Of a DNA stretch of 9,258 bases, positions 1 through 9,258 are shown one piece after another. The translations under genes and the position numbers were made by a program. This DNA comes from Hadesarchaea archaeon. GTDB taxonomy: Archaea > Hadarchaeota > Hadarchaeia > Hadarchaeales > WYZ-LMO6. The notes below the pieces were generated by a model, which was given only the letters and a program-made list of their open reading frames with translations, made no database searches and had not been told where the DNA came from. Each line of letters opens with the position of its first letter. Position 1 is the stretch's first letter. The DNA lies in NCBI GenBank assembly GCA_004347925.1, contig QNVD01000218.1, forward strand, positions 1-9,258. The letters are read 5' to 3'.

Positions 1-2
1 TC

Positions 3-92
3 CTCTCCGAAATCCCGAAACAAGTTGAGGATTTGGTACGAGACCTTGGTCTGAAACCCTCAGATCTATTCCCTAACTTTTTGCGGAGTTAA
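3..92 (+). CDS. C-terminal end of an unidentified protein (5' truncated)
   Basis: Frame 3 is open from the window edge to a TAA at 90-92 and reads as a plausible soluble C-terminus. It starts LSEIPKQVEDLVRDLGLKPS and continues DLFPNFLRS. The residues alternate charged and hydrophobic as in an amphipathic helix. The codons are less GC-rich than in the downstream gene. No family can be named from 29 residues. Support is only the open frame, the sensible composition, and the fact that a TATA-like element for the next gene begins three bases after the stop. It could instead be non-coding sequence that happens to be open. Confidence 0.4.
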   Translation, partial: LSEIPKQVEDLVRDLGLKPSDLFPNFLRS

Positions 93-94
93 GG

Positions 95-102
95 TTTATA
101 AA
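95..102 (+). promoter_or_regulatory. TATA box for the acyl-CoA synthetase gene
   Basis: TTTATAAA stands out in an otherwise GC-rich window. It lies just after the upstream stop codon, and its centre is about 26-27 bp before the ATG at 125. That is the usual archaeal distance from TATA box to transcription start, so the transcript may be leaderless or nearly so, starting at that ATG. The same geometry argues against the in-frame ATG at 110, which lies only 8 bp after the box. Confidence 0.55.
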
Positions 103-124
103 GACCCGCATGAACCGTGAAAGG

Positions 125-1615
125 ATGGATTCGGGGAGGAAACTGTCCGGGAAAGCTCTGGAGAAGATGCGCTACCTCCTGGACCCCCGATCGGTGGCCG
201 TGATAGGGGCCTCCCGCTCCCCCATCAAGTGGGGAAGCATCATCCTGAAGCACGTGGTGGAAGGGGGCTTCAGGGGGGAGGTGTACCCGGTGAACCCCAG
301 GGAGGAGACCATCATGGGGCTCAGGGCCTACCCCAAGGTTCCGGAGGAAACCGATCTGGCCCTCATCGTCACCCCCGCCCAGACGGTTCCGCCCCTGCTG
401 AGGGAGTGCGCCGAGAGGGGAGTGAAGGCTGCGGTGGTCATCTCGGCCGGCTTCAGGGAAACGGGGGAGAAGGGGGAGGAGCTGGAGAGGGAGCTGGTGA
501 GGATCGCGGAGGAGGAGGACCTCCCCTTCGTGGGTCCCAACTGCATGGGGGTCTTCAGCTCCACCTCCAGCCTCTGCGCCCTCATGGCCTCCGTCAAGCC
601 CCTCAAGGGGAACGTTTCCTTCCTCTCCCAGAGCGGTAACCTGGGGACCCAGCTGCTGGACCGGGGAACCTACTACCAGATAGGCTTCGACGTGTTCGTG
701 AGCACGGGAAACGAGGCCTTCCTGAGGTGCGAGGACTTCATAGAGCTGCTCAAGAAAAGGGAGTCCACGAGGGTGATCCTGGCCTACATAGAGGGGGTGA
801 AGAACGGGAGGAAGTTCTTCGAGGTGGCCAGGGAGACCAGCCTCCAAAAGCCCATCGTGGCCCTCAAGGTGGGGAAGACCAGCGCGGGGAGCAGGGCGGC
901 CAAATCCCACACGGGCTCCCTCTCGGGCTCCCTGCAGGTCTACCGGGGGGTCTTCAGGCAGGCGGGGGTGGTGGAGGCGGAGGACACGGAGGAGCTGCTG
1001 AAGGTGGCCATGGCCCTGGAGCAGCCCCTGCCCAAGAACAACCAGGTGATCATCCTCACCAGGGGAGGGGGATGGGGGGTGGCCGCCACCGACGCCTGCA
1101 GGGAGGGACTGGTGGAGGTGCCCCAGCCTCCCCCCGAGATCCTGGAGGAGCTGAACTCCTACATGCCGCCCTACTGGAGCAGGGGCAACCCCATAGACAC
1201 GGTGGCCGAGCTGGACCCCAGCCTGGAGTTCAAGATCCTGAAGACCCTGGAGAAGTGGGAGGCCGGGGGTCTGATCGTCCTGGGTGGGCTGGACGCCTAC
1301 GCCACCAGGTTCCTGGACCCGGAGCTGAGGAAGGTCTACGTGAGGGAGGTCCAGCTTCCCCTCATCAAGAGGCTCATAGCCCTCAACCGGAAGGGAAAGG
1401 TGGTCTTCGCCGTGGCCCTCAAGCCCCTGGACAAGTCCAGACCCGTCAAGCTCCTCCGGAAGCACCACATCCCGGTGTACTTCTCCCCGGAGGACGCCGG
1501 AAGGGCCTACTCCAAGCTGATGGAGTACAAGAGGATGAGGGAGAGGCTGGAGGGCCAAGCCCGCTCAGGGGTGTCCCCTGGGCCAGCACCTGGGCCTGGG
1601 AATCTCAAACCCTAG
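125..1615 (+). CDS. ADP-forming acyl-CoA (acetyl-CoA) synthetase, alpha subunit
   Basis: This is a cytoplasmic enzyme subunit of the ADP-forming acyl-CoA synthetase family, which interconverts acyl-CoA + ADP + Pi and acid + CoA + ATP. Numbered from ATG 125 it has 496 residues. A CoA-binding Rossmann domain comes first (SVAVIGAS near 23-30, GPNCMG near 137-142). A succinyl-CoA-ligase-like domain follows (SQSGNLGT near 168, STGNEA near 193) with the phosphorylated histidine in KSHTGSLSGS (His262). A third ligase domain then runs to about 475. The length fits a stand-alone alpha subunit (about 460 in the family). The ATP-grasp beta part is absent, so it needs a partner encoded elsewhere. ATG 125 is preferred over ATG 110 because of the TATA spacing and the GTGAAAGG before it. 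The last 16 residues are Gly/Pro-rich and lie antisense to the SCP2-like gene. The substrate could be acetyl-CoA or a longer or branched acyl-CoA; the sequence does not decide. Confidence 0.88.
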   Translation: MDSGRKLSGKALEKMRYLLDPRSVAVIGASRSPIKWGSIILKHVVEGGFRGEVYPVNPREETIMGLRAYPKVPEETDLALIVTPAQTVPPLLRECAERGVKAAVVISAGFRETGEKGEELERELVRIAEEEDLPFVGPNCMGVFSSTSSLCALMASVKPLKGNVSFLSQSGNLGTQLLDRGTYYQIGFDVFVSTGNEAFLRCEDFIELLKKRESTRVILAYIEGVKNGRKFFEVARETSLQKPIVALKVGKTSAGSRAAKSHTGSLSGSLQVYRGVFRQAGVVEAEDTEELLKVAMALEQPLPKNNQVIILTRGGGWGVAATDACREGLVEVPQPPPEILEELNSYMPPYWSRGNPIDTVAELDPSLEFKILKTLEKWEAGGLIVLGGLDAYATRFLDPELRKVYVREVQLPLIKRLIALNRKGKVVFAVALKPLDKSRPVKLLRKHHIPVYFSPEDAGRAYSKLMEYKRMRERLEGQARSGVSPGPAPGPGNLKP

Positions 1616-2149
1616 GATGGCCGTCATCACGTCGTACTGATCCAGCCCGGCCGTGGTGTTTCCCAGGATGGTGGCCCTTCCCTCGTAGACCGCGTTGAAG
1701 ACGCTTATCTCCCCCCCCAGCACGGGGACGAAGTCGTAGTAGTTCATTTTGATCCAGAGGTCCGGCTCCTCCTCCGGGGGACCCTCTATCACCTGCGTGG
1801 GGTTCAGGAACATCCTGACGAACTCCGTGCCCCTCTGGGGGTGCTCGATCTCGTACACTATCAGGCGGGAGGGGGCGGAGCTCGCCAGCTCCATGGCCTT
1901 GGGGCTACTTATGGCCCTCCCGATGATGAAGTCCAGGAGAAGCTCGTAGGCGGTGGGCTCCCTCCCCCTGTCCTGAATCCACTTGGAGTAGGGCGGCTGC
2001 CTCCACCAACCGTCCGGCCGGGGAAGGCAGAAGCTGGGGGGAGGAGGAGCCTCAGGCGTGACCCTCTCCAAGACGGAGGGGGGCTTCGTCTTCTCGAATT
2101 CCTCCGCGAACTTGGGATACATCTCCTTCAGGGAGGGAAGCTTGCCCAT
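1565..2149 (-). CDS. SCP2-like (sterol carrier protein 2 fold) protein, copy a, after mcrA1
   Basis: This protein has 194 residues. The C-terminal part resembles the SCP2 lipid or acyl-binding fold: SRLIVYEIEHP near 94-104, FLNPTQVIEG near 114-123, then EEEPDLWIKMNYYDFVPVLGG near 127-146 and the FNAVYEGRATILGN segment near 151-164. These match the SCP2 pattern of an acidic-Pro-Asp strand, a helix ending L-x-G, and Y-x-G-R/K-x-x-I-x-G. The N-terminal 90 residues are an unfamiliar extension rich in Pro and Trp (PRPDGWWR, DRGREPTAYEL). There is no signal peptide or membrane segment. About 61% of the first 170 residues match the paralogue at 7774-8385, and both end IPRPxxWPxGHP. The ATG at 2149 is chosen over the GTG at 2158 because it aligns with the paralogue's start and has GAGGTG six bases upstream. 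The gene follows mcrA1 by 10 bp. A role in carrying a hydrophobic substrate is inferred. The fold call rests on pattern recognition alone. Confidence 0.65.
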   Translation of the reverse strand: MGKLPSLKEMYPKFAEEFEKTKPPSVLERVTPEAPPPPSFCLPRPDGWWRQPPYSKWIQDRGREPTAYELLLDFIIGRAISSPKAMELASSAPSRLIVYEIEHPQRGTEFVRMFLNPTQVIEGPPEEEPDLWIKMNYYDFVPVLGGEISVFNAVYEGRATILGNTTAGLDQYDVMTAILGFEIPRPRCWPRGHP

Positions 2150-2150
2150 C

Positions 2151-3020
2151 CCCCCCACCTCAGTGCGGCGGGAGCACCGGGTCCCTCTCCCCGGCCGGCA
2201 TGAACTGCCTTATCCCCGCCTTGGCTATGCAGAGCTTGGGGTGCTTGAAGTCGAAGATCAGGTGGGGATCGGCGAAGGCCACCTTGACCACCGGGCTCAG
2301 GCACCATGAGCTCCCCCTCCCTATCATGGCGGCGTAAACGGCCGCTCCCCTTATGGCCCCGTGGGCGGCGCTGAAGGACTGCATGGGGTAGTTGAGCCCC
2401 CTCAGCTCCACCAGGTTGCCCTCCTCGGGTCTCATGCTGCACAGGTAGGGCAGGCCCAGGTGATCCTGGATCTCCTGACCCGCCCAGCCCGTCCTCAGCC
2501 ATCCCTCCTTCATGGCGAAGGCGATGGCGTAGTGGGCGGCCATCAGCCCCATGGTGGAGCTTCCGGTGAGCATGGCTGCAGAGGAGGCCGCTATGGAGCC
2601 TATCACGGAGACCCTGTGGGCCCCTCCCCAGTGGAACTCCGCCAGGGTGGGGAACTTCTCGTAGCTCTCCATGGTGTACTGGATGATGGAGTTGACCATC
2701 GTCCTGACGGTCTCCCAGCGGAGGGGAACCTTCCTCACCCCCTGCATGTAGCGGTGGGAGAGCTCTATCAGCTCCATCGAGATCTCGTTCATCACCTCGG
2801 AGTAGGCGGCCGAGGCCACCGTGTTGGAGAAGCCTATCCCCCCGCTCATGTAGAAGCCCAGCCAGAGCACGTTGTCTATGACCGCCGCTATTCCCCCTAT
2901 CCCCTCATGCATGGCGCGGGAGTACTTCAGCGCCTCCTCCTCGTCCTCCTGGGCCACCTCCAGGAACCTCCTGGCGGGGAGGTCCCTCTCGGCCTGCATG
3001 AAGTCGCAGATGTAGCCGTC
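2151..3020. repeat. Direct repeat, copy 1 (mcrA1 3' half)
   Basis: This 870-bp stretch matches 8386-9258 in the same orientation. Segment 2151-2432 has 5 mismatches in 282 bp against 8386-8667. Segment 2932-3020 is identical over 89 bp to 9170-9258. The offset changes from 6235 to 6238 because copy 2 has one extra codon in between. Differences cluster in a few blocks, mainly within about 2690-2935 and 2520-2600. It reflects duplication of mcrA. Confidence 0.92.
2156..2161 (-). promoter_or_regulatory. Shine-Dalgarno site inside the mcrA1 stop
   Basis: On the - strand the mcrA1 stop TGA runs into GAGGTG, then six G residues, then ATG 2149. This decides the start of SCP2 copy a and implies translational coupling to mcrA1. 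The same arrangement recurs at 8391-8396 before SCP2 copy b. Confidence 0.6.
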
Positions 3021-3971
3021 CGGGAAGCCGCCCGGCTCGTTGGTCCCCCTCATCCTCTGGTACCACATCTTGTTTCCCATCCTCACCACCCTGGCGTGCT
3101 TGAAGGAGTAGGCCAGGTCGGAGATGATGTGCTCACCGGAGAGGCCGTAGGAGGCTATGAAGGCCATGGTGTTCTGCATGGCCGCCCACCTGGCGGCCTC
3201 GTCCCCGTCCGCCATGCGCACCGCCAGGGTGGGGATGCGGAGGACGATCCAGATGGCGTCCCCTATGGCCTCCTTGAGCTTCTCCGCCCTGGTGGGGTGG
3301 AAGAGCTGGTCTATGTCTATGAGGAAGCGGCGGTCAAGGGCGTCCTTGACCTCGTCCGAGCCCGTGATGACCTTGGCGTAGGCGTCCTTGACCAGGAGGG
3401 GGTTGATCTCGGACATGTGCTCCTGGGCCACCGCCCCGCCGCACATGGTGTGCTGGAGGGTCTCCAGGTAGAGGTTGATGGTCTCGGGGGTGACCTCCTT
3501 CCCCGCCCTCACGGTGAGCATGCGGTGGGCTATGTCCAGGTTCACTATCACCGTCCTCTTTATGTCGTCCAGCATCTGCTGGATGGCCACGTTGTTCAGG
3601 TGGTGGGTGTCGTCCTGCTCCACCATGATGTTGGTCCCGGAGATGAGGAAGGGCTCCAGCTGCCTCTGCCCGATGGGGAGGCCCACCGCCCGGTTGTAGG
3701 CGGGAAGCCCCCTCTCCACCGCCACCTGCCTTCCCAGCCTGGCGAACTCCTGCTTCCTCTTGGACTGCCTGTACCCTCCCCTCTTGTACATCTGGGAGTC
3801 CTGCAGGGCGAAGGGATCGGCCCCGAAGGTCTTCTGCATGATGGAGTAGAGGGGCCTCTCCTTCTCCACCTCCAAATACTTCTTGGAGAGGGCGTAGAGT
3901 TCTCTTACGTACTCCCTTTCCCGGGCTTCCAGCTGCCCGGCCCTCTCATCGAGGACCTTTCTCTTCTCCAC
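2160..3971 (-). CDS. mcrA: Divergent methyl/alkyl-coenzyme M reductase alpha subunit (complete copy, mcrA1)
   Basis: This is the 603-residue catalytic alpha subunit of an F430 nickel enzyme acting on CoM-S-alkyl and CoB-SH. Alignment by eye to M. marburgensis McrA (about 550 residues) is collinear from RQSKRKQEF (68) to FMPAGERDPVLPP. Retained are Gln183 (axial nickel ligand, Gln147), Arg261 (Arg225), Lys291-His292 (Lys256 and methyl-His257), Arg306 (methyl-Arg271), Gly498 (thioglycine 445) and Asp503 (didehydro-Asp450). Changed are Tyr333 to Thr384, Gln400 to His452, Phe443 to Trp496, Tyr444 to Ala497, Cys452 to Leu505 and Arg270 to Gln305. These pocket changes suggest an alkyl-CoM reductase rather than a methane enzyme. 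The first ~45 residues are a charged helical extension longer than usual. The start is a GTG with no Shine-Dalgarno site but a TATA-like element 28 bp upstream; the next in-frame Met is residue 45. Maturation genes for thioglycine or Arg methylation are not in view. Confidence 0.93.
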   Translation of the reverse strand: MEKRKVLDERAGQLEAREREYVRELYALSKKYLEVEKERPLYSIMQKTFGADPFALQDSQMYKRGGYRQSKRKQEFARLGRQVAVERGLPAYNRAVGLPIGQRQLEPFLISGTNIMVEQDDTHHLNNVAIQQMLDDIKRTVIVNLDIAHRMLTVRAGKEVTPETINLYLETLQHTMCGGAVAQEHMSEINPLLVKDAYAKVITGSDEVKDALDRRFLIDIDQLFHPTRAEKLKEAIGDAIWIVLRIPTLAVRMADGDEAARWAAMQNTMAFIASYGLSGEHIISDLAYSFKHARVVRMGNKMWYQRMRGTNEPGGFPDGYICDFMQAERDLPARRFLEVAQEDEEEALKYSRAMHEGIGGIAAVIDNVLWLGFYMSGGIGFSNTVASAAYSEVMNEISMELIELSHRYMQGVRKVPLRWETVRTMVNSIIQYTMESYEKFPTLAEFHWGGAHRVSVIGSIAASSAAMLTGSSTMGLMAAHYAIAFAMKEGWLRTGWAGQEIQDHLGLPYLCSMRPEEGNLVELRGLNYPMQSFSAAHGAIRGAAVYAAMIGRGSSWCLSPVVKVAFADPHLIFDFKHPKLCIAKAGIRQFMPAGERDPVLPPH

Positions 3972-4008
3972 GTTTAAGAAAATAGGAGGAAAGGGATAAA
4001 AGGCTTTC
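3972..4008 (-). promoter_or_regulatory. Short AT-rich spacer: possible mcrA1 promoter and upstream terminator
   Basis: This is the only sizeable gap inside the - strand cluster. On the - strand it reads as a pyrimidine-rich tract with a TTTTAT element (3996-4001) centred about 28 bp before the GTG of mcrA1. No Shine-Dalgarno site precedes that GTG. This matches a leaderless archaeal transcript, the same geometry as the synthetase gene at 125. The T-rich runs (CCTTTTATCCCTTT, ATTTTCTT) could equally end transcription of the gene ending at 4009, since archaeal terminators are often T-tracts. Both readings would separate mcrA1-SCP2a from the upstream genes as a transcription unit. Confidence 0.4.
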
Positions 4009-5583
4009 CTACTCCACGGGCAGCTTGTAGGGGGTGGTGCCCAAAAGGACCAGCTTGCCCTCCTGCCCCATCTTCCTGTCCGCCAGGCAGGAGTAGTGCA
4101 GGATGTTCTCCCCCGAGCCGTCGTAACCCTCCTCCACCATGATCTGCAGCTTCTCCCTGGTCATGTCGACGGGCCAGACCTGCCCCTCCTTCCAGTCTAT
4201 GGGCGGGAAGTCGCTGGGCTTCAGCCACTCTATGGTGGGGTCGAAGAGCCACTTGATCCTGGGAACCTCGTTGTAGGGCGGGATCCTTCCCGTCTTGCGG
4301 TCCACCCCTCCCTCCGACTCCAGCAGCTCCCAGTACTCCTTCGGGAGCTTGTCCGGGTTGGCGAAGATATCCCCGATGTTTACCTCCCTGTAGACGGGGG
4401 CGGGCAAGGCGGTGAAGAAGGCCTTGGGCGGTGGGATGCCCTCGTCGTAGGGCATGGCCAGACCCTTGAACGCCTTGCCCTTGAGGTAGAGCTCCCTCAT
4501 CTGATGGAGCATGGGGGTCTTCTTCTCCGGGGTGATCACCTTGTTTATGGCATCACACACCAGGCCCTTGGGTCCCGTGGTGAAGAGCTCCTCCAGTCTC
4601 CTCACCCAGAGCTCCGCGGGAAGGGCCAGCAGGGTGTTGAGGATGGGGGGAAGGGGCTCGTAGGTGTAGAACATGATGGGGATCCCTATCAGCCTGGTGG
4701 CGTTCATGGCCATCCAGACCAGGGCCCAGAACTGGGCGGTCCAGAAGGTGTGCTGGGAGGCTATGCCCATGTTCCCGGGGGAGGTGGAGATGTAGAGGGT
4801 GGCGTGGGTCCACCTAGGGAAGATCTCCTCCCTCAGGTCCTTTATGATGTCCCTGGCCATCCTGAGCCACTCCACCAGATCGTAGGGGGACCTCTTGGGT
4901 ATCTCACGCAGCTTTATGCCCGTGCGCAGGTGCCTTCTATCCAGGGGGGCCGTGACGTCGGGGGGAACCGCCATGAAGTCGCTGGGCGTGAGGAGCTTCT
5001 GCCTGTCCTCCTCGTCGAAGTGCTGCACGATCTCCTTGGTCATCCCTATGATCCAGTGCTGAACCGGCACCCCGTCCTCGTTGTGGTATCCCTGGAACCA
5101 CACGAACTCTCCCCTCCACCAGTCCACGTGGCACCACATGGTGGTGGCGTACTTCCCGTACAGCATCTGAGTGGTGGAGAAGCCGAGATCGGGCCTGACC
5201 ATGTAGGCCGGGGGATGGCTGAGGTGGCAGAGCCACTTGGCCTTGATCAGCTCCGAGACCGGGGGTTTCTCGGCCACCGCCCTTTTGCAGATCCCTATGG
5301 CGTGGATGACCCTGTAAGCCCACTCCACGAACTCCTCGTAAATCAGCTTGTCGTACTCCTCCATCGTTATACCGCCCCTCTCCCTCACCCAGTTGAGGTA
5401 CCAGGGCTCGGTGGCCATCCCGTCGGGGGCTATGTGCTCGTAGCCGGGGGGATAGGTGTCCCTGTAGTACTCGGCCTGCTTTTCCCTTATCTCGAGCGCC
5501 GTTCCGCTCAGTCTTCTCTTGAAATCCTCGAAGGCCTCGGGACTCAGGACCCTGCTAACCCCTTCCAAGTGCTTGCTGCTCAA
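4009..5583 (-). CDS. Unrecognised 524-residue Trp-rich protein in the ACR operon
   Basis: I do not recognise this family. The protein is soluble-looking with no signal peptide and no clear membrane helix, although 279-305 is hydrophobic. It contains about 20 Trp, unusually many. Possible metal or catalytic positions include WLCHLSHPP (Cys119, His120, His123) and MWCHVDWW (Cys151, His152, Asp154). Other Cys are 99, 343 and 499. A Pro-rich stretch IGIPIMFYTYEPLPP lies near 299-313, and PPYNEVPRIKWLFDP near 435-449. The gene starts at a TTG nine bases after the mcrG stop, supported by GGTGA four bases upstream, so it is almost certainly co-translated with mcrG. Its place between mcrG and mcrA1 implies a job with the reductase: assembly, substrate handling, or the unknown alkyl-CoM to acyl-CoA conversion. 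I considered and could not support soluble di-iron hydroxylase, HgdB/BcrC-like reductase, UroD-like methyltransferase and methylmalonyl-CoA mutase. The gene call is firm; the function is open. Confidence 0.85.
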   Translation of the reverse strand: MSSKHLEGVSRVLSPEAFEDFKRRLSGTALEIREKQAEYYRDTYPPGYEHIAPDGMATEPWYLNWVRERGGITMEEYDKLIYEEFVEWAYRVIHAIGICKRAVAEKPPVSELIKAKWLCHLSHPPAYMVRPDLGFSTTQMLYGKYATTMWCHVDWWRGEFVWFQGYHNEDGVPVQHWIIGMTKEIVQHFDEEDRQKLLTPSDFMAVPPDVTAPLDRRHLRTGIKLREIPKRSPYDLVEWLRMARDIIKDLREEIFPRWTHATLYISTSPGNMGIASQHTFWTAQFWALVWMAMNATRLIGIPIMFYTYEPLPPILNTLLALPAELWVRRLEELFTTGPKGLVCDAINKVITPEKKTPMLHQMRELYLKGKAFKGLAMPYDEGIPPPKAFFTALPAPVYREVNIGDIFANPDKLPKEYWELLESEGGVDRKTGRIPPYNEVPRIKWLFDPTIEWLKPSDFPPIDWKEGQVWPVDMTREKLQIMVEEGYDGSGENILHYSCLADRKMGQEGKLVLLGTTPYKLPVE

Positions 5584-5587
5584 GAGC

Positions 5588-5592
5588 TCACC
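5588..5592 (-). promoter_or_regulatory. Shine-Dalgarno site fixing the TTG start
   Basis: On the - strand the mcrG stop TAG is followed by GGTGA, then GCTC, then TTG 5583. The four-base spacing equals that of mcrB and mcrG in this operon, so it supports the rare TTG start of the 524-residue protein. No ATG with a comparable site lies near the N-terminus. Confidence 0.55.
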
Positions 5593-6384
5593 CTACATCT
5601 CTTCCGTAAGGAGCTCCGGGTTGAAGCCGGCCAGGACCCTGAGCTTGGCGGCCCTGGAGAGGATCTCCAGCACCTCCGTCCTGGACTTGAAGGGATGGGT
5701 GTCCCAGGTGTAGGCCAGGTCCAGCTTCCTGCACTCCTCCTCCGAGAGGGGTCTCCCCACGGGAACCGGGTTGTCCAGCACCCTCCCCATCTGGTCCTTG
5801 ATGTAGACCACCTCCCTCGTGGACTTGTCCAGGATGTACCTCCTCCTGGCGTCGAACATCAGACCGTCCTCATCCAGCCTCAGGGAGTGACCGTGGATGG
5901 TGATTCCCTTGAGGGCCGTTCTGGCCGGATTGAAGATCTCGGTCTCCAGCAGCATCTTCATGGCCGCCTCCAGATCCCTCTCCCTCATCTCCAGGATGCA
6001 CCTTCCACTGTAGGCCACCACGTCTATTCCCCTGAGCCTGTTGAAGTAGAGCCTCAGCCTCCCGTGGGGGGCTATGGGGGGGTGCCAGAAGCTGTCCGCG
6101 AACTGCACGAACCTTATCCTGTCCCCCGCCCGCGCGCCGGGGGTGGGAACCACGATGTTCTTAATGGGATCGTAGGCCTCGATGAGCTCCTCCAGGGGGG
6201 GGTGCACGCTTGGGTAGAGGGCCCCCACCGCCCTGTGCCCCAGGAGCCGGGTGATGTCGTCGTCCGAGATCTCCCTGTACTTGGCCAGCTTCCTCCTCTT
6301 GTCCCAGAGCTTCCTCCGCCTCTCCGAGGTCTCGTCCTTACCGGGGTAGATCTGCGGTTCGTACTTCACCTTTCCCTCCGCCAT
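5593..6384 (-). CDS. mcrG: Methyl/alkyl-coenzyme M reductase gamma subunit
   Basis: This is the 263-residue gamma subunit of the alpha2beta2gamma2 reductase, close to the usual 250-265. Family landmarks appear in order: YEPQIYPG at the N-terminus, REISDDDITRLLGHRAVG (38-54), YPSVHPPLEE (57-66), VPTPGARAGDRIRFVQFADS (79-98), SGRCILEMRERDL (126-138), HGHSLRLDEDGLMFD (about 163-177) and GRPLSEEE. Arg128 in SGR corresponds to gamma-Arg120 of M. marburgensis, which contacts the CoM sulfonate. The ATG lies four bases after the mcrB stop, with GGTGA overlapping that TGA, so the two are translationally coupled. Canonical methanogen operons read mcrBDCGA; here no mcrD or mcrC lies between mcrB and mcrG. 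Confidence 0.95.
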   Translation of the reverse strand: MAEGKVKYEPQIYPGKDETSERRRKLWDKRRKLAKYREISDDDITRLLGHRAVGALYPSVHPPLEELIEAYDPIKNIVVPTPGARAGDRIRFVQFADSFWHPPIAPHGRLRLYFNRLRGIDVVAYSGRCILEMRERDLEAAMKMLLETEIFNPARTALKGITIHGHSLRLDEDGLMFDARRRYILDKSTREVVYIKDQMGRVLDNPVPVGRPLSEEECRKLDLAYTWDTHPFKSRTEVLEILSRAAKLRVLAGFNPELLTEEM

Positions 6385-6388
6385 CCTT

Positions 6389-7765
6389 TCACCCCTTCAT
6401 CACCTCTGGCTTTATCCTCTCCGCCGCCTCCGCCACCTTCTTCAGGGGCTCGTGGAGGAGGGGCAGCCTCTCCCTTATCTTGAAGTAGCTGGCCGAGGTC
6501 ATCTCGGGCGAGAAGAGCTGGGTGCCCGAGTCCAAACACATGCCGGCCACGATGCACGGACCCACGAAGCCAGACCCGTGCCTGGGAATCACGTGATCGA
6601 GGGTGTAGGCCCCGGGGCCGGCCCCACCGTAGATGGAGTGGGTGTAGAAGGCGAATCCCTGCCCCGTCCCCTCCACCCTGCCGGCGTCGGGGTCGGGCAA
6701 GCCGCCCGTCTCCATGAGGAGGAGGTCACCGAAGTATCCTATCACGGTGGAGACGCTCTGCGCCGCCCTGCTCGCCCCCACGTTCACTATGACGGCTGCC
6801 AGAACGGCTGCGCAGGTGTAGGCGTTCCAGAGGGGGTAGTCGTTGGTGGAATAAATTTTGTATCCGGAGGGGAGGGTTCTTTTGACCTTGATCACCCCGT
6901 CCTCCAAGGCCCTCCTCACCACGCTGTAGGCCACATCCCCTATCGTCCCCTCCCTGTTCTCCTTCACCAGATCCAGCACCAGGTTGTTGGCGTTGAATCC
7001 CTGGTAGGCGGAACCCAGGAGCTGGTACCTCTCAAACCATCCCAGCGCGTTCCCCATCTCCCACTGGGCGGCCTGCTCGAGGATGGTGGTCAGGGCCACC
7101 GCGTCCAGGGTCCTCTTGTTGCAGAGGGCCACCAGATGGTTGACCATGATGGCCTTGAAGCCCGATCCCAGCCCGTCCACCGTGTTGCTCTGCTTAAGGA
7201 AGGTGGAGACCGGCCCGCCGGGGGGAAACTCGGGGGACTGCGGGTACCTCCCGAAAACCGCTCCCTTCAGCATGTTGCAGCCGTCGGGGTCCGTTTCCGG
7301 GGTCATGTTGAAGGTTTCGGCCACCGCCTGACAGAGGGCCACCGCCGTCCAGGTGAGGGTGGGATCCCTGCTGGCCGAGATCTCCATCATCCGGCGGGGG
7401 ATCTTGACTATGATGTACTTCCCCGCCCCCTCCACCAGCGGCTCCCCATCACCGTACTTCTCCACCTTCTCCTTGATCCTCTCCACGATCTCCTTGGCCC
7501 TGTCCACCAGCGGGAGATCCCTGCCGTACCAGGGCATCCTGTTCTCGTCCTGCCCCACCACGGTCTCCCAGCCGGCCATTCCCTTTTTCATCAGCACCTC
7601 CAGCTTGCCCAGATCTATGACTGCCAGCCTCTTGAAGAGATCCAGGACCTCCCTCATGTAGGGGTTGTAGAGGGGAGAGAGGGCCTGGAGAGGTATCTCC
7701 CTGCCCACGCAGTTCCCCAGGTCGTCGTACAGGTCCACCGTTTCCTTCGCCGTCTTCGCCTTCAT
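6389..7765 (-). CDS. mcrB: Methyl/alkyl-coenzyme M reductase beta subunit
   Basis: This beta subunit has 458 residues from ATG 7765 (usual length about 443). Landmarks: VDLYDDLGNCVGREIPLQAL at the N-terminus, GAVFGRYPQSPEF (about 168-180), ALTTILEQAAQWEMGNALG (about 224-242), YQGFNANNLVLDLV, RRALEDGVIKV, HSIYGGAGPG (about 376-385), PEMTSASYF and EPLKKVAEAAERIKPE. The active-site Tyr equivalent to beta-Tyr367 is present (Tyr379), and His391 matches the CoB-contacting beta-His379. A region near residues 63-85 (AGWETVVGQDENRMPWYGRD) looks longer than in methanogens. ATG 7765 is preferred over the GTG at 7795 because AGGTGA lies four bases upstream and VDLYDD then falls at the normal distance from the start. 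It begins eight bases after the SCP2 copy b stop. Confidence 0.95.
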   Translation of the reverse strand: MKAKTAKETVDLYDDLGNCVGREIPLQALSPLYNPYMREVLDLFKRLAVIDLGKLEVLMKKGMAGWETVVGQDENRMPWYGRDLPLVDRAKEIVERIKEKVEKYGDGEPLVEGAGKYIIVKIPRRMMEISASRDPTLTWTAVALCQAVAETFNMTPETDPDGCNMLKGAVFGRYPQSPEFPPGGPVSTFLKQSNTVDGLGSGFKAIMVNHLVALCNKRTLDAVALTTILEQAAQWEMGNALGWFERYQLLGSAYQGFNANNLVLDLVKENREGTIGDVAYSVVRRALEDGVIKVKRTLPSGYKIYSTNDYPLWNAYTCAAVLAAVIVNVGASRAAQSVSTVIGYFGDLLLMETGGLPDPDAGRVEGTGQGFAFYTHSIYGGAGPGAYTLDHVIPRHGSGFVGPCIVAGMCLDSGTQLFSPEMTSASYFKIRERLPLLHEPLKKVAEAAERIKPEVMKG

Positions 7766-7769
7766 CCTC

Positions 7770-7775
7770 TCACCT
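7770..7775 (-). promoter_or_regulatory. Shine-Dalgarno site deciding the mcrB start
   Basis: AGGTGA on the - strand overlaps the TAG stop of SCP2 copy b and sits four bases before ATG 7765. It places the mcrB start at 7765 rather than at the in-frame GTG 7795, and it couples mcrB translation to the SCP2-like gene. Confidence 0.6.
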
Positions 7776-8385
7776 AGGGATGGCCCAGAGGCCACATCAC
7801 CGGCCTCGGGATGGGAGTGGGACTCCCTGGCGGGGCCTCCCTGCCGTTAGTAGCTTCCAACACATCACATAAAAGGTCTATGGCTGCCACCGTGTTCCCT
7901 ATGATCTCCACCCTCCCCTCGTAGAGGGGATTGAAGGGGGGAAGCTCCCCGCACAGCACGGCCACCAGATCGTAGTACCCTATCCTCACCACCACATCCG
8001 GCTCCTCCTCCGCGTATCCCTCCATCACGTCCGTGGGGTTCAGGAAGATCCTGGCATATTCCACCCCCCTCGTGGGATGCTTCACCTCGAAGAGGATCAG
8101 CCTTGAGGGTGGGGTGCTTCCTATGGAGATGGCCAGGGGGCTGGTCATGGCCTTTCCCACGATGAAATCGTGGAGCAGCTCGTAGGCGGTGGGCTCCCTC
8201 CCCCTGTCCACTATCCAGAGGGAATGGGGGTACTCCCTCCACCAGCCCTCCGGACGGGGCTGCGAGGCCTTGGGGAGGGGAGGCTCCTCCGTGGTCACCC
8301 TCTCCATCACGGACGGGAGCTTGGTCTTTTCAAATTCCTCGCTGAAGTTGGGATACCACTCCTCCAACCTGGGAATCTTCCTCAT
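7774..8385 (-). CDS. SCP2-like protein, copy b, between mcrA2 and mcrB
   Basis: This 203-residue paralogue of the protein at 1565-2149 has the same order of parts. It has an N-terminal extension with PRPEGWWR and DRGREPTAYEL (61-70 identical in both), then SRLILFEVKHP (94-104), FLNPTDVMEG (114-123), EEEPDVVVRIGYYDLVAVLCG (127-147) and FNPLYEGRVEIIGN (151-164). The C-terminus ends IPRPVMWPLGHP, nine residues later than in copy a because of a Gly/Pro-rich linker near 180-190. I counted about 103 identities in the first 170 residues. The ATG is preceded by GAGGTG at five bases and starts nine bases after the mcrA2 stop. Conservation of both ends in two diverged copies argues that the N-terminal extension and the tail matter. 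Its place inside an mcrA-mcrB operon suggests a part in substrate or product carriage, or in the reductase complex. That is inferred from the fold and position only. Confidence 0.65.
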   Translation of the reverse strand: MRKIPRLEEWYPNFSEEFEKTKLPSVMERVTTEEPPLPKASQPRPEGWWREYPHSLWIVDRGREPTAYELLHDFIVGKAMTSPLAISIGSTPPSRLILFEVKHPTRGVEYARIFLNPTDVMEGYAEEEPDVVVRIGYYDLVAVLCGELPPFNPLYEGRVEIIGNTVAAIDLLCDVLEATNGREAPPGSPTPIPRPVMWPLGHP

Positions 8386-9258
8386 CCCCCCACCTCAGTG
8401 CGGCGGGAGCACCGGGTCCCTCTCCCCGGCCGGCATGAACTGCCTTATCCCCGCCTTGGCTATGCAGAGCCTGGGATGCTTGAAGTCGAAGACCAGGTGG
8501 GGATCGGCGAAGGCCACCTTGACCACCGGGCTCAGGCACCATGAGCTCCCCCTCCCTATCATGGCGGCGTAAACGGCCGCCGCCCTTATGGCCCCGTGGG
8601 CGGCGCTGAAGGACTGCATGGGGTAGTTGAGCCCCCTCAGCTCCACCAGGTTGCCCTCCTCGGGTCTGAAGCTGCACAGGTAGGGCAGGCCTATGTGGTC
8701 CTGGATCTCCTGACCCGCCCAGCCCGTCCTCAGCCATCCCTCCTTCATCACGTGGGCTATGGAGTAGTGGGCGGCCATCAGCCCCATGGTGGAGCTTCCG
8801 GTCAGGATTCCGGCCGTGGCGGCCGCTACGGAGCCTATCACGGAAACCCTGTGGGCCCCTCCCCAGTGGAACTCCGCCAGGGTGGGGAACTTCTCGTAGC
8901 TCTCCATGGTGTACTGGATGATGGTGTTCACCATGAACTTCACCGTTTCCCACTTGGGCGGTACCTTCCTGACCCCCATGGTGTAGCGGTGGATGAGCTC
9001 CACCAGCTCGTCCGAGAAGGATTCTATGATGTTGCCCGCCAAGGCGGCCGAGGCCACCGTGTTGGAGAAGCCTATTCCCCCGCTCATGTAGAAGCCCAGC
9101 CAGATGGAGTTGTCTATCACCGCCGCTATTCCTCCCGTCCCCTCGTTCATTGCCCTCAGGTACTTCTTGGCCTCCTCCTCGTCCTCCTGGGCCACCTCCA
9201 GGAACCTCCTGGCGGGGAGGTCCCTCTCGGCCTGCATGAAGTCGCAGATGTAGCCGTC
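8386..9258. repeat. Direct repeat, copy 2 (mcrA2 visible part)
   Basis: Partner of 2151-3020. The final 89 bp (9170-9258) are identical to 2932-3020, and the match runs to the last base of the window, so the repeat probably continues beyond it. Confidence 0.92.
8395..9258 (-). CDS. mcrA: Second methyl/alkyl-coenzyme M reductase alpha subunit (3' part only, mcrA2)
   Basis: The reading frame is open through the right edge, where codons for DGYICDF precede MQAERDLPARR. It therefore continues upstream of the window; Met 9237 is internal. The visible 287 residues are the C-terminal half of McrA. By eye it differs from mcrA1 at about 38 of 280 aligned positions (about 86% identity) with one extra residue. 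The altered active-site set is the same: FSNT in place of FTQY, GGAH in place of GGSQ, and TGWAGQEIQDHIG in place of the thioglycine segment, with the thioglycine Gly and following Asp kept. Divergence concentrates just after FSNTVASAA and in a few short blocks, while the ends are almost identical at DNA level. With SCP2 copy b it forms a second alpha-SCP2 pair, upstream of the only visible mcrB and mcrG. Confidence 0.92.
   Translation of the reverse strand, partial: DGYICDFMQAERDLPARRFLEVAQEDEEEAKKYLRAMNEGTGGIAAVIDNSIWLGFYMSGGIGFSNTVASAALAGNIIESFSDELVELIHRYTMGVRKVPPKWETVKFMVNTIIQYTMESYEKFPTLAEFHWGGAHRVSVIGSVAAATAGILTGSSTMGLMAAHYSIAHVMKEGWLRTGWAGQEIQDHIGLPYLCSFRPEEGNLVELRGLNYPMQSFSAAHGAIRAAAVYAAMIGRGSSWCLSPVVKVAFADPHLVFDFKHPRLCIAKAGIRQFMPAGERDPVLPPH

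Follow-up and report, generated by a model that had tools for sequence, protein, structure and literature searches.

An undescribed conserved protein family linked to alkyl-coenzyme M reductase operons in archaea

The operon and its 524-residue gene

The window analyzed here is a stretch of 9,258 nucleotides from a Hadesarchaea archaeon (assembly GCA_004347925.1, contig QNVD01000218.1, positions 1 to 9,258), and our subject is a minus-strand gene that lies in it between mcrG and mcrA1, within an operon for an alkyl-coenzyme M reductase (ACR), the divergent kind of methyl-coenzyme M reductase (MCR). It is well supported that the encoded protein is a member of an undescribed protein family, which we call TrpFam, and that this family is real, conserved, and linked to ACR. 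The gene, its upstream signal, and its neighbors are as follows:

4009..5583, minus strand: founder of TrpFam, 524 residues, with a TTG start at 5583 and a stop codon ending at 4009
5588..5593, minus strand: GGGTGA, a Shine-Dalgarno-like site as read from the sequence, which overlaps the mcrG stop and lies 4 bases before the TTG
5593..6384, minus strand: mcrG (MCR gamma; Pfam and NCBIfam), stop codon at 5593-5595
6389..7795, minus strand: mcrB (MCR beta; Pfam and NCBIfam)
7774..8385, minus strand: SCP2-like protein of 203 residues (Pfam E 0.12, under the cut-off)
8395..9258, minus strand: second mcrA copy, C-terminal part only, 87% identical to mcrA1 and running off the window
2160..3971, minus strand: mcrA1 (divergent MCR alpha; Pfam and NCBIfam), GTG start
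1565..2158, minus strand: second SCP2-like protein, 197 residues (Pfam)
110..1615, plus strand, convergent with the operon: acyl-coenzyme A (acyl-CoA) synthetase (NDP-forming), alpha-type subunit (Pfam and NCBIfam)

The minus-strand run thus consists of seven genes: mcrA copy 2, SCP2-like, mcrB, mcrG, the TrpFam founder, mcrA1, and SCP2-like. An earlier reading of this DNA, made from the sequence only, had placed the gene 9 bases after mcrG with a coupled Shine-Dalgarno site and just before mcrA1, and had given it 524 residues with about 20 tryptophans. These features are as claimed, with 9 bases to the mcrG stop, 37 bases to the mcrA1 GTG, and 20 tryptophans. The gene shares the strand and the tight spacing of its ACR operon neighbors, and the McrA encoded next to it belongs to the divergent type: with the canonical model TIGR03256, mcrA1 reaches 510 bits where the cut-off is 768 bits, as expected for a divergent McrA. 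The 203-residue SCP2-like protein is homologous to a protein of Bathyarchaeota BA2 that is over the Pfam cut-off (PF02036, E 2.4e-8).

Both mcrA copies in the window (8395-9258 and 2160-3971) are followed by an SCP2-like gene, forming a tandem mcrA-SCP2 unit. A second mcrA copy within a Hadesarchaeota mcr operon is already in print (PMC6783470). A plus-strand open frame of 795 residues (4096-6483), antisense to the TrpFam gene and mcrG, is typical of GC-rich coding DNA and is not a gene. The surrounding operon is of a known kind; the novelty sits at the level of the protein family.

An undescribed family and its distribution

Orthologues that are 92, 94, and 81% identical to the window protein are found in three other Hadarchaeota genomes, at the same position in the same operon, which bears out the claim of the sequence-only reading that this is a conserved protein locked into the ACR operon. 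The ratio of nonsynonymous to synonymous substitution rates (dN/dS) is 0.020 and 0.071 against two of these orthologues (for the third, synonymous sites are saturated), so that the gene is under purifying selection, as are mcrB and mcrG. The shared operon place in three genomes and the low dN/dS indicate that the gene is more than a chance open frame.

No family in the libraries searched accommodates the protein, as that reading had also supposed. Pfam and NCBIfam, McrC and McrD models included, returned no match to it at E ≤ 10. The Protein Data Bank (PDB) sequences gave no match except one chance row (E 1.9), the family profile had no match among PDB chains, and a Pfam search with 32 family members (E ≤ 1) gave just four one-member, chance-level rows. 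The AlphaFold2 model of the window protein is confident (pLDDT 93.8), and Foldseek comparisons with PDB folds gave no significant match; the top rows (FtsA, PPX, PilM, and Hsc70, which are actin/RNase-H-like) are weak, with best E values of 0.038 and 0.32. Membership in a known family of these sequence libraries is therefore rejected. No description of the family was found in the open-access literature, with supplements and subscription papers outside the search.

A database search with the window protein found 34 proteins and a profile search found the same 34; those with a named source belong to Hadarchaeales and Bathyarchaeota BA2. Scanning 84,980 species genomes with a pattern yielded 12 loci, which come from Hadesarchaea S4B3_HD70, uncultured archaeon METABAT_384, Bathyarchaeota BA2, and three "Ca. 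Methanolliviera" genomes. Seven further Halobacteriota genomes, from a sample of 392, carry relatives of 370 to 480 residues that were first seen at E 2e-8 to 3e-13 and reach E 5e-100 or better after the profile update, in which these rows are themselves part of the profile. When two alignments that share no sequence were compared profile to profile, they matched with a probability of 99.7% (E 6e-27) over 237 columns, which indicates that they represent one superfamily. A further database search brought up 39 proteins that belong to this second clade, some of them named as Alkanophagales, Syntropharchaeia, or Halobacteriota archaeon, and a third, shorter family type is present in six of the seven further Halobacteriota genomes. 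Based on the profile searches, the superfamily ranges over Hadarchaeota, Bathyarchaeota BA2, Methanoliparia, and Syntropharchaeia/Alkanophagales-type archaea.

The sequence-only reading had proposed co-occurrence with ACR-type McrA as a check, and the homologues do track McrA, which is present in all 16 carrier genomes. Of the 28 Hadarchaeota genomes, 4 have TrpFam, each with 4 to 7 family matches when pieces at contig ends are counted, and McrA occurs in the same 4; among Bathyarchaeia, both are found in the same single genome of 256. Four of the five Methanoliparia genomes have TrpFam, and the fifth (G034) has one McrA match that scores like canonical MCR. In the Halobacteriota sample, McrA is present in 231 genomes and TrpFam in 11, all of them McrA positive, and the remaining 220 McrA-positive genomes gave no TrpFam match. 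The sole McrA match of one carrier, G031, scores like a canonical one. TrpFam is restricted, in the genomes searched here, to archaea with methane- or alkane-activating (MCR-type) genes.

The 12 McrAs tested from regions with type-1 or type-2 copies are ACR type; in a tree that was midpoint rooted for drawing only, they make up a single clade (100/99), separate from 10 canonical McrAs. A thirteenth McrA, encoded 5.4 kb away from a type-3 paralogue of G503, groups on the canonical side, and an ACR tie of this sort therefore does not extend to the third type. In the Halobacteriota genome G587, the mcrB-mcrG-gene-mcrA-SCP2 order of the window recurs, interrupted by one small Cys-rich gene (L078). 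Two further mcrA regions of this genome contain two and three TrpFam copies.

Conserved residues and gene neighborhoods

Conservation was read from an alignment of 23 members and from a larger one of 49 rows, five of which are type-3 paralogues. The segments of interest in the window gene are as follows (counts from the 23-member alignment):

5209..5214, minus strand: codons of Pro124-Pro125, invariant (23/23)
5083..5109, minus strand: codons of Glu159 (22/23) to His167 (23/23), on a predicted beta strand
4825..4839, minus strand: codons of Asp249 to Glu253, each 22/23, in one predicted helix
4012..4326, minus strand: C-terminal extension, residues 420-524, absent from the Halobacteriota clade

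Pro124, Pro125, His167, Gly171, Gly222, Pro256, and Gly300 are invariant in the 23 members. A basic motif is nearly so, with Arg216 in 21, Arg or Lys at position 217 in all 23, and His218 in 20, and the equivalents of Arg217 and His218 remain conserved in the 49-row alignment. Judging from these patterns, the Glu159-His167 stretch is the best candidate for a functional site. The sequence-only reading had pointed instead to Cys/His clusters. Cys119, His120, His123, Cys151, His152, and Asp154 are indeed present in the window protein, but among the 23 members Cys119 is kept in 8, His120 in 5, His123 in 10, Cys151 in 2, and His152 in 11, and only the Asp154 position holds up (Asp in 17, Asn in 6). 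A metal site at Cys119/His120/His123 and Cys151/His152 is therefore rejected, and with it the importance attached to these clusters.

The C-terminal extension is the most conserved part of the protein within the Hadarchaeota/Bathyarchaeota/Methanoliparia clade. A separate observation is that Halobacteriota copies are followed (in L061, preceded) by a small zinc-ribbon-like protein in which three Cys and one His are invariant; four of these proteins were tested and had no Pfam match:

L057 2915-3283: small Cys-rich protein
L061 598-1050: small Cys-rich protein
L063 2191-2733: small Cys-rich protein
L077 3759-4097 and 5443-5787: small Cys-rich proteins
L078 4186-4578: small Cys-rich protein
L079 1172-1528 and 4551-4913: small Cys-rich proteins

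The idea that the C-terminal extension is a fused form of this protein was rejected (profile probability, 0.1%).

Neighbors were counted in the 33 regions that hold type-1 or type-2 copies, with matches reaching down to 21% identity. An SCP2-like gene is present in 19 regions, mcr genes in 16, a CoA ligase in 14, and an aldehyde:ferredoxin oxidoreductase (AOR) in 7; in 32 regions, one or more of these genes or a beta-oxidation gene is present, and the exception is a contig-end fragment. In all four Hadarchaeota genomes, a copy and a gene of the long-chain fatty-acyl-CoA ligase type are separated by, or overlap by, 0 to 4 bases, where the start of the ligase-linked copy of G027 is taken from a tblastn match. 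A phylogeny of 32 copies places the acr-operon copies from the four Hadarchaeota in one group (97/96), the ligase-linked copies in another (100/99), and three copies from mmp2 regions in a third (100/100), which indicates that paralogue groups keep their neighbors. Chance co-location with the ligases is argued against by this conservation only.

In G026, one stretch contains mcrA, SCP2-like genes, an NDP-forming CoA ligase, a TrpFam copy, and AOR, so that cleavage of alkyl-coenzyme M (alkyl-CoM) is the only expected activity to which no named gene of that stretch corresponds. A TrpFam copy also lies together with a CoA ligase and AOR in the "Ca. Methanoliparum"-type genome G035, whose AOR is 50 to 55% identical to those of Hadarchaeota; the AORs of G032 and G033 are just 27 to 29% identical. 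The gene just upstream in G035 is a two-domain fusion that matches two SCP2-like partner families (in a small set of 14 sequences). Three sorts of SCP2-like partner occur: the operon kind, of which one, from BA2, is over the Pfam cut-off; a kind whose members clearly exceed it (two of them with E 2.6e-9 and 1.2e-10); and weaker kinds that stay under it.

Several regions have features of their own. In BA2 (L015 6636-9286), an FAD-linked oxidase and a CCG iron-sulfur protein lie just upstream, where other genomes have AOR, and are a possible redox partner. The AOR next to a member in L082 (9403-11347) is in two overlapping frames, probably because of a frameshift or sequencing error. Subunits like those of 2-hydroxyacyl-CoA dehydratase/benzoyl-CoA reductase, with an activase, share a region with a TrpFam member and mcrA (L081 1428-4674). 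By eye, pilin-like or secreted-looking frames adjoin two copies (L037 3144-8484 and L043 2-8215). A marker-7 protein (under the cut-off) and two further unassigned frames lie downstream of SCP2-mcrA-mcrG-mcrB in L075 (40-3056), where an MCR-activation cluster seems to be joined to the acr operon. The type-3 paralogue at L099 464-1429 has, by reading only, the same mmp8/AtwA-like setting as that at L098 1498-2451.

Proposed function and relation to known systems

The sequence-only reading had called the step from alkyl-CoM to acyl-CoA unresolved, and the literature agrees: a Hadarchaeon forms hexadecyl-CoM and the following step is called unknown (PMC10811742), and the conversion of alkyl-CoM to acyl-CoA is likewise called unknown in the "Ca. 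Alkanophaga" paper (PMC10322722). Methanoliparia are treated in PMC6703427 and PMC11376074, and further related work is in PMC6478937 and PMC9012536. ACR, AOR, and ligase cover the other steps, and TrpFam and the SCP2-like proteins are the recurring uncharacterized neighbors, which is why we propose a role in cleavage; the adjoining acyl-CoA ligases, AOR, and SCP2-like proteins favor a role between alkyl-CoM and acyl-CoA. Our prediction, which we regard as possible rather than probable, is that the window protein acts on the ACR product, binding alkyl-CoM and helping C-S cleavage toward acyl-CoA. ACR would convert the alkane to alkyl-CoM, and the TrpFam protein would take this from ACR, perhaps holding the sulfonate by the Arg216-Arg217-His218 motif (a guess). 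Glu159, His167, Asp249, and Glu253 would form the reactive site, where the C-S bond would be broken with the help of TrpFam, by hydrolytic or redox chemistry, and HS-CoM would leave. The chain might then pass as an alcohol or aldehyde to AOR and CoA ligase, with SCP2-like carriers, and these enzymes would yield acyl-CoA for beta-oxidation. The wider proposal is rather doubtful: that a dedicated family without a recognized fold, confined to alkane-activating archaea, performs this missing C-S-breaking step, and that its paralogues are specialized for different chains or partners (ACR, AOR, and CoA ligases).

A number of points weigh against a cleavage role. The protein has no redox-cofactor motif and no structural template, and His167 is less than 90% conserved in the 49-row alignment. 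The neighbor queries were drawn from the same loci, and the counts are raw, without a genome-wide background. The McrAs of G313, G582, G640, and G408 score in or near the ACR range, yet these genomes gave no TrpFam match, which weighs against full exclusivity or universality of the tie between the family and ACR. Hydrolysis of the thioether to an alcohol is uphill for methyl-CoM. In addition, the aor genes of "Ca. Alkanophaga" are moderately expressed, and the authors doubt that Aor acts in this step (PMC10322722).

The neighbors of some copies also speak for another role, that of a factor for ACR maturation, assembly, or activation, modelled on McrC/McrD and the marker proteins that serve canonical MCR; it would help the ACR subunits to fold, insert or alter the nickel cofactor, modify McrA, or maintain ACR activity. 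The gene sits between mcrG and mcrA in Hadarchaeota and in G587. The gene for the YcaO protein of McrA-glycine thioamidation, mmp1, lies between a TrpFam gene and mcrA in two genomes (L081 and L082; one over and one under the cut-off), mmp2 adjoins a copy in L008, as tested, and in L016 and L040, as judged solely from resemblance, and the type-3 paralogue of L098 lies between mmp8 (over the cut-off) and AtwA/component A2 (just under). We nevertheless consider this role unlikely, since 13 of 19 Hadarchaeota regions are without mcr genes, copies of one group are coupled to a CoA ligase throughout the four Hadarchaeota genomes, and the window protein matches neither the McrC nor the McrD model. 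Four Methanoliparia regions without a nearby mcr gene count against a maturation factor and against the cleavage role alike.

Also unlikely is a nonenzymatic carrier or scaffold that would bind the long alkyl chain, together with the SCP2-like proteins, during its conversion by ACR, AOR, and CoA ligases. A carrier, like a maturation factor, would leave a similar neighbor pattern. However, the charged residues Glu159, His167, Asp249, and Glu253 are conserved at about 20% identity, and such conserved polar residues favor an active site over a plain hydrophobic carrier; moreover, hhalign comparisons of TrpFam with three neighboring SCP2-like alignments gave a probability of 0.2% each, showing no profile similarity to these proteins. 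That the gene is an unrelated passenger of the acr operon is very improbable, given its purifying selection and identical operon position in four Hadarchaeota genomes, the existence of relatives, about 20% identical, in the acr operons of a different phylum, and the presence of McrA in every carrier genome.

With TrpFam, the alkyl-CoM to acyl-CoA question gains a specific protein that is conserved and expressible and for which residues, partners, and a gene order can be named. Were it a maturation factor or chain carrier instead, it would still be a needed part for attempts to express ACRs. TrpFam is also a possible marker gene, beside mcrA, for oil-degrading archaea in metagenomes.

Among known systems, McrC/McrD and the methanogenesis marker proteins are likewise mcr-operon accessories, and some TrpFam copies adjoin mmp1, mmp2, mmp8, or AtwA; TrpFam differs in having no NCBIfam match and in occurring in just 11 of 231 McrA-positive Halobacteriota. 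The window protein and the 32 members scanned with Pfam have no match to SCP-2 (PF02036), to an AOR domain, or to URO-D, the kind of cobalamin/CoM methyltransferase to which MtaA, proposed by others for "Syntrophoarchaeum", belongs. AOR, which others have proposed for the step, is a separate protein that would serve the same pathway and is encoded beside copies in 7 of the 33 regions. The window protein is not McrA, McrB, or McrG, which Pfam and NCBIfam find in its neighbors only, but its gene lies inside an ACR operon, and the McrAs of regions with type-1 or type-2 copies form a divergent clade.
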